Assembly (NCBI GenBank): GCA_902787715.1
Contig: CADAHQ010000004.1
Span: forward strand, 59,363 to 123,362
Source of the DNA: an uncultured Lachnospiraceae bacterium
GTDB taxonomy: Bacteria > Bacillota > Clostridia > Lachnospirales > Lachnospiraceae
Direction: 5' to 3'
Length of the DNA stretch: 64,000 bases
Shown here: piece by piece, positions 13,418-16,077 of the stretch
How the letters are laid out: each line of letters begins with the position of its first letter
Numbering within the stretch: position 1 is the stretch's first letter
Notes under the pieces: model-generated
What the model was told of the DNA's origin: nothing
The model's input: only the letters and a program-made list of their open reading frames with translations
The model's database searches: none
Program-made: the position numbers and the translations under genes

Positions 13418-13688
13418 AAAAAAATAACTCATCCCCGGTTGCTACACCAGAGGACGAGCGATTAACCCGTGGTACCACCTCTATTCAGTATACGAAAACG
13501 TATACCCTCATTCAGGCACATTTATGCCTTATCGCGATAACGGACGCATCCGGCGATGCCTACTTAGCTGACGCTGTTCAACATGCTGCTCTCGGGAGGA
13601 ATTCGGAGGTTCTTCGATGCCGGCTTTCACCATGCCCGGCTCGCTGCGAGGGAAGAATGATTCGTACTGGTTCCCGGTCGTTGCATTT
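13418..13688 (-). promoter_or_regulatory. T-box riboswitch, specifier UUC (Phe), with intrinsic terminator
   Basis: Minus-strand leader of paaK. The T-box core AGGTGGTACCACGGG lies at 13480-13466. Downstream is a terminator: CTCGTCCTCTGGT (13458-13446) pairs, with wobbles, with AACCGGGGATGAG (13440-13428), then a T-run (13424-13418). Upstream, Stem I shows the loop-E pair: AGUA at 13668-13665 and GAA at 13604-13602, closed below by CGGGA/UCCCG; the three bases after GAA are UUC (13601-13599), the specifier codon for Phe. Uncharged tRNA-Phe would stabilise the antiterminator. The T-box call is secure; the specifier was folded by hand. Confidence 0.92.
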
Positions 13689-13694
13689 AACCAA

Positions 13695-13723
13695 TATATA
13701 CACTACAAGGTTTGGCTTGTCAA
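13695..13723 (-). promoter_or_regulatory. Promoter of the T-box/paaK transcript
   Basis: Minus strand TTGACA (13723-13718), 17-nt spacer, TATATA (13700-13695). Predicted start near 13688. Confidence 0.85.
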
Positions 13724-13822
13724 GAATTATTTTTCGCGAGAGTTGTAAGATAGGGTTGGAGGACGTATATCTCCTCTGTTTTAGGGATCCCAAACAACAG
13801 TCCCGGCTGCGTTTCGGCAAGA

Positions 13823-13861
13823 TTACGGCCTGAAAGCAGGTTTCGCGTCCCGCGGCCGTAA
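13823..13861. repeat. Palindromic element 1
   Basis: Arms TTACGGCC (13823-13830) and GGCCGTAA (13854-13861), perfect 8-bp pairing, 23-nt centre. Followed by a 55-nt segment containing TACCTCA at its positions 25-31. Confidence 0.85.
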
Positions 13862-13916
13862 CTGTATCTGTCTACCCACAGCAGTTACCTCATTGTTGTC
13901 TTGCTTTTGCGGGTGA

Positions 13917-13955
13917 CTACGGCCGGAGAAGCCGATTTGTGTCTCTGGGCCGTAA
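13917..13955. repeat. Palindromic element 2
   Basis: Arms TACGGCC (13918-13924) and GGCCGTA (13948-13954). Inner AGA/TCT can extend pairing past a small internal loop. Followed by a 56-nt segment about 60% like the first segment. Confidence 0.85.
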
Positions 13956-14011
13956 ATGTACCTGCCTGCAAACTCCGGTCACTTGTTATGTTGCCTGACT
14001 ATGTGAGTTGC

Positions 14012-14050
14012 CTACGGCCCGAAGCCCGAGTTTTCTGCATCAGGCCGTAA
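14012..14050. repeat. Palindromic element 3 (central)
   Basis: Arms TACGGCC (14013-14019) and GGCCGTA (14043-14049); inner GA/TC extends pairing past one mismatch. It is the middle of the array. The following 55-nt segment has TGAGGTA at positions 25-31. Confidence 0.85.
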
Positions 14051-14105
14051 TTGCCTTGTCTTGTGCTTTCAAAATGAGGTATGTTTCTTACGAGACAGAT
14101 AAGGA

Positions 14106-14144
14106 CTACGGCCTGGGGATTGGTTTCATGTCGCCAGGCCGTAG
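14106..14144. repeat. Palindromic element 4
   Basis: The most regular element: GGACTACGGCCTG (14103-14115) and CAGGCCGTAGTCC (14135-14147) form a perfect 13-bp inverted repeat around a 19-nt loop. The outer pair is C-G where elements 1 and 5 have T-A. The following 55-nt segment has TGAGGTA at positions 25-31. Confidence 0.88.
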
Positions 14145-14199
14145 TCCCATGAATCATAAGCCTTGAAATGAGGTAAGACACTATATCCCTCTGATTATA

Positions 14200-14238
14200 T
14201 TACGGCCTGAGGGTCGGATTCTAACCATCGGGCCGTAA
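14200..14238. repeat. Palindromic element 5
   Basis: Arms TTACGGCC (14200-14207) and GGCCGTAA (14231-14238); inner TGA/TCG extends pairing to 11 bp with one wobble. Last element of the array. Confidence 0.86.
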
Positions 14239-14295
14239 ATGAACCGTCCGGCCGAGGTCGACCGCCCCAAAAACTTCAAACACAAGTAATAAAAC

Positions 14296-14309
14296 ATGAC
14301 CACGGTCAT
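14296..14309. promoter_or_regulatory. Short palindrome, possible operator
   Basis: ATGACC-AC-GGTCAT, perfect 6-bp arms, 99 nt before the small lipoprotein ATG and where a sixth array element would be expected to start (14294) although its sequence differs. A partial copy, TGTGACCGG, follows at 14317. May be a regulator site. Confidence 0.4.
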
Positions 14310-14407
14310 AATCGGTTGTGACCGGGGTAACTGTTAGGCAGAAGCGGAGTGTGCTATTGTGTGTACAGTGCAGGAAAAATGTTACCGTGTTAAGGAGGCT
14401 TTCCTAT

Positions 14408-14815
14408 ATGAAGAAATTGTTTGATTTGGCGGCAGCGGTCGCTTTGCTTGTTCTGGTGGCGGTGGGCCTTACCGCGTGCGGGGCACCGTACACTTCGCAT
14501 TATACGGCCAGCGCCATGGTGCAGTCCCATGATTCAGATTCGGCGAAGGTGAGTTTCTGGACCGTGAAGGGCACGATGGTGTATACGCTGAAGATTAAGG
14601 AAGACAAGGGAGAAATCAGCTACGAGGCGCAGCTTGAATCGGGGAAGATGACGGTATATTACGATTGCGACGGGACGAAGACCGAGTGGTTTACGCTCAA
14701 AGGCGGAGAGTCGGTGAGCGCGTCGCTTACGGACCTTTCCGAGGGCAAGGTGTATATCATCATCGAAACCGACGGCAAATGCGAAAACGGCAAGCTTTCC
14801 TTTGAAGTCAAATAA
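14408..14815 (+). CDS. Small lipoprotein, unknown function
   Basis: 135-aa lipoprotein. Start at ATG 14408 with AAGGAGG nine nt upstream; a longer frame from a GTG at 14318 has no signal sequence at its start. Signal peptide 1-23, lipobox LTAC with Cys24. The mature part (about 110 aa) is predicted beta-rich (alternating VSFWTVKGTMVYTLKI, MTVYYDC) and has no motif I recognise. Next to the palindromic array and a VanZ-like gene; no operon evidence beyond same strand. Confidence 0.8.
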   Translation: MKKLFDLAAAVALLVLVAVGLTACGAPYTSHYTASAMVQSHDSDSAKVSFWTVKGTMVYTLKIKEDKGEISYEAQLESGKMTVYYDCDGTKTEWFTLKGGESVSASLTDLSEGKVYIIIETDGKCENGKLSFEVK

Positions 14816-15639: not shown

Positions 15640-16077
15640 ATGGCAATCAAGAAGATGAAGGATGTTGTTGAGATCAAGGCTGATGCCGCTGCAGTAGAGA
15701 AGGCTGTTAAGGAGACTGCAAAGAAGGCTGAGAAGGCTGAGAAGGCAGTTGTGAAGGCAGCTGAGAAGAAGGCTGAGAAGCCCGCTGAGAAGAAGGCTGT
15801 TAAGGCTGCAAAGAAGGTTGTTAAGAAGGCTGAGGATGCAGTAGCTACCGTAGCTAAGAAGGCTACGAAGGCTGTTGCAAAGGAAGCAAAGGCTGAGGTT
15901 GTTCTTCAGTTCGCCGGCAACGAGATTAAGATGGTTGACGTTCTCGACGCTGCTAAGAAGGACTTCGCTGCTAACAACAAGGTAGCTCTCAAGACCATCA
16001 CGCTCTATGTTAAGCCCGAGGACGGCGCTGCTTACTATGTTGCAAACGGCGACATCACCGGCAAGGTAAATCTGTAA
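15640..16077 (+). CDS. Lys/Ala-rich protein with C-terminal DUF6465-like domain
   Basis: 145-aa protein. Residues 1-88 are almost only Lys, Ala, Glu and Val in helix-forming repeats (KKAEKAEKAV, KKAVKAAKKV), like histone H1-type basic tails. Residues 88-145 are a compact domain (VVLQFAGNEI, then KTITLYVKPEDGAAYYVANG) that I recognise as DUF6465, widespread in Lachnospiraceae. Codon use is narrow (AAG, GCT, GTT), as in highly expressed genes, with a strong promoter and terminator. DNA or RNA binding by the basic half is plausible but unproven. Ribosome site AAGGAGG. Confidence 0.8.
   Translation: MAIKKMKDVVEIKADAAAVEKAVKETAKKAEKAEKAVVKAAEKKAEKPAEKKAVKAAKKVVKKAEDAVATVAKKATKAVAKEAKAEVVLQFAGNEIKMVDVLDAAKKDFAANNKVALKTITLYVKPEDGAAYYVANGDITGKVNL

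Follow-up and report, generated by a model that had tools for sequence, protein, structure and literature searches.

Helically phased palindrome arrays tied to an undescribed nuclease-like gene family point to an unrecognised bacterial DNA system

Why should five palindromes with the same arms stand at almost equal distances in the chromosome of an uncultured Lachnospiraceae bacterium? In the window, by which we mean the whole stretch of 64,000 nucleotides analysed here, the initial annotation had reported five palindromic elements at steps of 94–95 nt, and the positions, arms and steps are as it claimed. Each element has the form TACGGCC-N23-GGCCGTA with both arms invariant, giving a core of 37 bp, or 39 bp with the outer Y and R bases, and successive starts lie 94, 95, 94 and 94 bp apart. 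The features of the array are the following.

13824..13860, no strand: palindrome element 1, TACGGCC-N23-GGCCGTA, by pattern match
13863..13874, plus strand: spacer 1 motif TGTATCTGTCTA, cross-array consensus TTGTACCTGTCTA
13884..13894, plus strand: spacer 1 motif GTTACCTCATT, the YRAGGTA motif as reverse complement
13918..13954, no strand: palindrome element 2, 94 bp from element 1
13957..13967, plus strand: spacer 2 motif TGTACCTGCCT, consensus TTGTACCTGTCT
13977..13987, plus strand: spacer 2 motif GGTCACTTGTT, consensus GGTCACTTGCTT
14013..14049, no strand: palindrome element 3, 95 bp from element 2
14071..14082, plus strand: spacer 3 motif AAAATGAGGTAT, by cross-array comparison
14092..14106, plus strand: spacer 3 motif GAGACAGATAAGGAC, the ACCTGTCT motif, inverted
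14107..14143, no strand: palindrome element 4, 94 bp from element 3
14165..14176, plus strand: spacer 4 motif GAAATGAGGTAA, by cross-array comparison
14201..14237, no strand: palindrome element 5, at which between-array homology stops

A strict detector, which looks for clusters of at least two palindromes of 35–39 bp with perfect, related 7-bp arms, returned these five elements only from the 64-kb window and none from 60 first-order Markov shuffles of it. The array lies between the T-box leader of a gene that we take, from its sequence, to be phenylacetate-CoA-ligase-like and a small lipoprotein-like gene with a start near 14408. The leader itself (13447–13690, minus strand, ahead of the ligase-like gene) would be serving an unusual T-box target, if it is real. 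Farther along, a lysine- and alanine-rich repeat protein at 15640–16077 resembles a histone H1-like tail, and in several congeners similar sequences adjoin these genes. In relatives, the 23 paaK-type loci examined (L035–L057), which belong to the 42 control loci described below, carry no array, and the window copy is therefore not a fixed feature of the paaK-type gene.

The array has relatives within the window's own genome (G000; 2.48 Mb in 54 contigs), where 38 exact TACGGCC arm pairs are found. Nine arrays account for 37 of these, the remaining one lying in an array of another type (L022), and hold four further elements that differ by one mismatch or measure 36 or 38 bp; five of the nine have five elements and four have four. 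When aligned, they have a common orientation and the step pattern 94-95-94-94, with slight departures in three, and position-specific spacer motifs in common: TTGTACCTGTCT after elements 1 and 2, GGTCACTTGCTT in spacer 2 and AGACAGATAA ahead of element 4. The word TGAGGTA, pointed out earlier in segments 3 and 4 of the window array with its reverse complement in segment 1, is real and recurs in the other arrays as YRAGGTA, again in spacers 3 and 4 and, in spacer 1, as reverse complement; the partly inverted layout of these motifs is conserved across arrays. The central TT, which had been called invariant, is not so across the G000 arrays. Between arrays, the arms are 99.3% identical (2099/2114), the interiors 47% and the spacers 54–65%, and the flanks are 25% identical in the 60 bp past element 5 and 30% in the 60 bp before element 1, from which it follows that the arms are kept, the spacers partly kept and that the unit stops at the outer palindromes. 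These identities, together with the phasing tests below, uphold the view that arms and spacing are under selection. The dispersed arrays adjoin very different genes, and several sit between convergent genes. A second type of array in the same genome, with TACCGCC arms (L017 6200–7000, L022 1400–2100, L082 7500–8350), has the extra motifs AGACAGGTA, AAGCTTC and GTTGTCAGTTAG, and its copies are 76–83% identical.

Copies in related strains had been anticipated. For the exact arms this failed: a search of 60 other genomes, 21 from the same genus among them, gave no TACGGCC pair, and a pattern built from the spacer motifs matched G000 only among the 22 genomes of the genus; the same architecture does occur there with other arms. 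A close relative (G002) has a five-element array with gaps of 94, 94, 95 and 94, arms TACCGCC...GGCGGTA and similar kinds of spacer motifs, G008 and G018 have elements of 36 bp, commonly 73 bp apart, and a member of another genus (G087) has four-element arrays spaced, as read from the sequence, 73, 83–84 and 73 bp. An arm-and-period pattern matched ten of 397 genomes of the bacterial family; the arrays are real in three (G000, G002 and G087) and probable in one (G108), the other six being judged from the match listing alone. Near-identical units occur within the arrays of G018 and G002, so tandem duplication does make arrays. Viral contigs searched with the G000 array pattern gave no match, and BLAST of the array against phages gave five weak matches with 4–7% covered. 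A GTDB contig that matches the pattern (L033) looks like coding repeats and was rejected. A MAG with the title Eubacterium sp. SUG77 has its own array where a contig ends (L032 1–450); the arms there are TACGGCC and the spacings 73 and 94 bp.

The distances between elements differ from array to array in a regular manner. Spacings in the first five genomes fall into ten classes (52, 62–63, 73–74, 83, 92–95, 114, 133, 145–146, 176–179 and 188–189 bp) that fit 10.41 bp per turn, with 3/20000 random sets fitting as well. A tally of 128 values from 64 array loci in at least ten genera (the window's own array and L142 left out; L137, L138 and L144 repeating L077, L019 and L070; L021 including the L165 array; and, where neighbouring arms pair too, only distances of 45–70 bp counted) has its best period at 10.46 bp. 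All 110 spacings below 100 bp are 52–54, 62–64, 71–75, 83–86 or 92–96 bp, corresponding to 5 to 9 turns with none between; three spacings (133, 151 and 176 bp) are off-phase. In a table compiled from earlier results with one common spacing for each palindrome family, all 27 families are within 2.5 bp of a multiple of 10.5, and none of 20000 random sets does as well. The suspicion that the nine-turn spacing of the window array reflects true helical phasing is supported by the spacing tallies and the 27 families. Since the spacings fall at 5 to 9 helical turns, we read the unit as double-stranded DNA approached from one face; proteins on one face of the double helix would explain the whole-turn quantisation, which RNA would not.

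The symmetry of the elements gives a mixed picture. Their outer pairs had been thought to covary; in 38 elements the pair is C-A in 13, C-G in 11, T-G in nine and T-A in five, giving Y as the left base and R as the right, and the 16 Watson–Crick pairs set against 19.3 expected from independent sides amount to no covariation. Mirror pairing in class A interiors is at chance (164/418 versus 155.7 in shuffles), and G-T and A-C mismatches are about equally common (32 and 47; 38 and 40), as in DNA half-sites. TACGGAC elements have 156 interior pairs where 120.9 are expected and class A elements outdo half-swapped chimeras in folding (z −3.4), which suggests that extra symmetry is favoured in some families, and cruciforms or hairpins may have some role. 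The 461-nt region as a whole folds better than shuffles (z −6.95). Rfam has no match to the array itself, and no sigma-70-like promoter was found in 13700–14420.

What do the arrays belong to? The initial annotation saw no link to any known system, which holds for the systems that can be named and misses a gene family to which the arrays are linked. One G000 array (L019 9996–10430) begins 203 bp after a gene of 278 aa, the C7 copy at L019 8957–9793, and gene and array occupy ~1.9 kb between a permease and a response regulator, where G002 also has both. Among 12 permease loci of congeners, a response-regulator motif lies 154–197 bp after the permease in five and 818 bp after it in G018, the remaining six having no motif within 1.5 kb. 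The gene copies of G000 and G002 are 53% identical, as against 93% over the C-terminal part of the permease and 85% over the rest, so that gene and arms have either diverged or been replaced together. No target-site duplication was noticed in the pairs compared by eye. At the same junction, G018 (L093 1–1500) has a different insert, ~600 bp longer.

The gene is multicopy, with 39 matches (E <= 1e-20) in 15 of the 22 genomes of the genus. The strict detector finds an array at 21 of the 39 copies, 18 of them with three or more elements; with a broad detector admitting palindromes of 24–60 bp, an array is found by either at 31, 24 of them with three or more, and by neither at eight (the 39 include L140 and L142, near-identical copies in two species). 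Both detectors found no array at 42 control loci from the paaK, permease and Y1_Tnp searches (Fisher p 5e-9 for the strict count). Of the 21 strict loci, 16 have an array on the 5' side of the gene and nine on the 3' side (four have both), and the nearest element lies 29–564 bp from the gene; one array runs into the ribosome-binding region. The arms differ by gene copy: TACGGCC, TACCGCC, CACCGCC, TACGGAC, TACCTAC, GGCCCAC, TGCATGC, TTCTGTTG, CTTTGAC, ACATCGG, TACCCAC, TATGACT, TTGGAAC, TACTACA and TTCAATG, with CCGCTGT and other gene-linked arms detected by the broad detector. All four G000 copies have an array, with arms TACGGCC (spacing 94 bp), CTTTGAC (53), TTCAATG (84, two strict elements) and CCGCTGT (62 bp, seen with the broad detector alone). 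Outside the genus, 29 loci out of about 70 matches listed were tested, and an array was found at seven by the strict and 12 by the broad detector, nine having three or more elements; some of the 22 loci with no strict array are cut by contig ends, and several contigs start inside an array. Family-wide, the gene was matched in 42 of 120 sampled genomes, one per genus, in at least two (G080 and G133) only at the end of frames of >1100 residues. The tie between the arrays and this undescribed nuclease-like gene family points to an unrecognised bacterial DNA system; a literature search, made largely outside subscription papers, turned up no account of such arrays or of the gene family. A second gene subfamily (L149, L150, L151, L158, L160 and L166) adjoins a conserved gene, presumably for a protein like N-acetylmuramoyl-L-alanine amidase, which suggests vertical inheritance there.

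The linked protein is ~270 residues long, its C-terminal half holding a PD-(D/E)XK-type domain. Across 27 aligned members, E162, V164–K167, E169, D200, F201, E215 and H216 are invariant, with the acidic-site pattern E..E..D-F..E-H in every member. Searches of Pfam with eight members and NCBIfam with five gave no match above cut-off; in PADLOC, the C7 copy matches the C-terminal nuclease part of PDC-S68 (E 3.6e-26), and there is a weak match to HEAT_CxxC_PD-DEXK (E 0.012 to 3.6e-5). A homologous domain from relatives on viral contigs (profile match 99.8%, E 6.3e-30) was modelled at a mean pLDDT of 77.8, and among solved folds Bax1 and restriction-endonuclease-like proteins come nearest to the model, with modest scores (best E 7e-4, TM 0.43). 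By its conserved acidic site, the PADLOC models and the fold modelled for the viral-contig domain, the protein belongs to the PD-(D/E)XK superfamily and is a predicted nuclease. A PDB sequence search gave no convincing relative (best E 0.058) and PHROGs gave weak matches, the best (E 4e-4) to an endonuclease family. In plasmids, three records have just the C-terminal domain, which in two lies within AAA ATPases, and a fecal phage record has a nearly full-length homologue with no array seen.

The arms of dispersed arrays are present beside the gene of the same genome, and they turn over between species. TACGGAC pairs number 30, 13, 12, 6 and 4 in the five genomes that have TACGGAC arms at their gene, and among the other 17 genomes there are none in 13, one in each of three and nine in G021; no gene was found in G021, one of whose two arrays ends 10 bp from a contig end. 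TACCGCC pairs number 16, 12, 8 and 6 where TACCGCC or CACCGCC stands beside the gene (four genomes, G000 with a single such element there), and 0–2 elsewhere. Both sets of counts take in gene-linked sites, and in G007 all six are of this kind. In G012, GGCCCAC elements occur both at the gene and dispersed. The 229,526 bases of G000 DNA examined for the three remaining arm types of that genome, a sample chosen for the first type, showed no dispersed array of them; the ten CCGCTGT matches in this DNA belong to the gene-linked array. Similarity of arms is correlated with similarity of proteins overall (r 0.47; 109/20000, 15 loci) and does not follow it within the main subfamily (Mantel r 0.15; 4986/20000, 11 loci), so either the arms turn over faster than the proteins or a partner reads the arms.

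The nearest known kind of system is the REP/BIME sequence with its RAYT (PMC3733652, PMC2817692, PMC8266576). REP, BIME and REPIN sequences likewise are extragenic palindromes of 20–40 bp, single and clustered, dispersed and species-specific, with mosaic spacers that hold conserved motifs, and there, too, the palindrome beside an enzyme gene recurs across the genome. The enzyme differs, being PD-(D/E)XK-type here and not HUH Y1. As PMC3733652 describes them, REPs carry a GTAG or CGTC tag that stays unpaired, at one of the palindrome's two ends; our arrays have no such tag, their TAC/GTA lying inside the paired arm at both ends, and they differ further in their whole-turn placement and in the absence of interior pairing from many elements. 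With neither the HUH enzyme nor the unpaired tag, the arrays are not members of REP/RAYT, though they may still work alike.

We think it fairly probable that the window array is a dispersed double-stranded DNA element, non-coding and present here as a solo copy, which belongs to a REP/RAYT-like system built on another enzyme, with the phased arrays as its binding scaffold; the binding, cutting and mobility in this account are what we infer. The linked protein or a partner would bind each palindrome as a dimer, and neighbouring dimers would meet on one face of the DNA in a single nucleoprotein complex. At the gene, an array could control the gene's own promoter, and arrays elsewhere would be solo copies. 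The protein may copy or move arrays and gene-plus-array units round the chromosome, much as RAYT does REP sequences, and selection on it may drive the fast change of the arms; the insertion, the multicopy state and the sharp homology ends suggest that array and gene are copied together. We offer more tentatively, as a possibility somewhat short of an even chance, the stronger version in which the system is an independent, non-HUH counterpart of REP/RAYT: a PD-(D/E)XK nuclease would mobilise or home phased arrays, each copy reading its own arms only, in private and fast-diverging pairs, of which G000 would have four. Either way, such a system would explain intergenic repeats in many related bacteria, and sequence alone is enough to see the DNA partner of the linked gene family. 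A protein that mobilises the arrays would represent a new class of DNA-copying enzyme; should it do no more than bind them, the family is a natural set of many protein–site pairs with helical phasing built in, which would lend itself to studies of cooperative DNA assembly and of how specificity evolves.

The arrays could instead serve as operators for a separate DNA-binding protein that is unlinked and organises the nucleoid or regulates genes, with the nuclease-like genes merely sharing their intergenic niches. The varied neighbours of the dispersed arrays, the convergent settings and the lack of correlation between protein and arms within the main subfamily speak for this, but the finding of arrays at 21 of 39 gene copies with the strict detector, or 31 with either, and at 0/42 controls, four paralogues with four different arms in one genome, and the presence of an arm type tracking that of a gene copy make it rather unlikely. 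A looping operator array had been among the first candidates and came closest, in that the arrays are probably protein-bound and possibly looping. The looping operators of lac and gal are palindromes at whole-turn spacing, as here; our arrays differ in having two to ten sites each, 27 palindrome families and dispersed copies. More doubtful is transcription of the array as a multi-hairpin RNA, for example a type III antitoxin RNA upstream of a nuclease gene, with the dispersed copies as orphan RNAs. Type III toxin–antitoxin systems of the ToxIN kind do have a tandem repeat array just upstream of a nuclease-like gene, and the 5' position at 16 of the 21 strict loci, the array that reaches a ribosome-binding region and both folding scores lean the same way. 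Against this, the period shifts in steps of whole DNA turns, A-C mismatches are about as common as G-T ones and class A interiors pair at chance, arrays are also 3' of the gene (nine of 21 strict loci) or dispersed and gene-free, the protein fold differs, and neither Rfam nor the promoter search gave a match; the multi-hairpin small RNA of the initial annotation is not supported, in view of the mismatches and the quantised spacing in particular.

Purely selfish palindromes of REP/BIME type, moved by a Y1 (HUH) transposase, would also be extragenic, dispersed, clustered, ~37 bp long and species-specific in sequence, and G000 does have a Y1_Tnp match (C12:46519). We nevertheless consider such an origin very improbable: Y1_Tnp (PF01797) was not found in G008, G018 or G012, all of which have arrays, no such palindromes lie near the six Y1_Tnp loci examined, and the paired TAC/GTA ends are unlike the REP GTAG tag. 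The last alternative, a decayed tandem duplication without function, has in its favour the near-identical units in G018 and G002, but decay would have the arms changing as fast as the spacers, and the contrast between arms and both interiors and spacers, along with whole-turn spacing in 27/27 palindrome families, leaves it next to no credibility.

The favoured reading, that of phased arrays as the scaffold of a REP/RAYT-like system with another enzyme, has looser parallels elsewhere. Integrons and solo attC clusters (CALINs) have arrays of palindromic sites beside an enzyme gene, plus gene-free arrays, and our arrays likewise occur with and without their gene; the spacers here, mostly 16–59 bp, are too short for cassettes, the arms are strictly conserved and the enzyme is of another type. 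As for CRISPR, the spacers of our paralogous arrays are homologous, which argues against acquisition. PDC-S68 candidate defence proteins, which join a helicase to a C-terminal nuclease, share the homologous nuclease domain with the linked protein, which has no helicase; at seven viral-contig loci of PDC-S68 type, no phased array was detected. The viral contigs L167–L173 encode helicase-like proteins of up to about 1200 aa in the stretch covered, with the same nuclease domain at the C-terminus.
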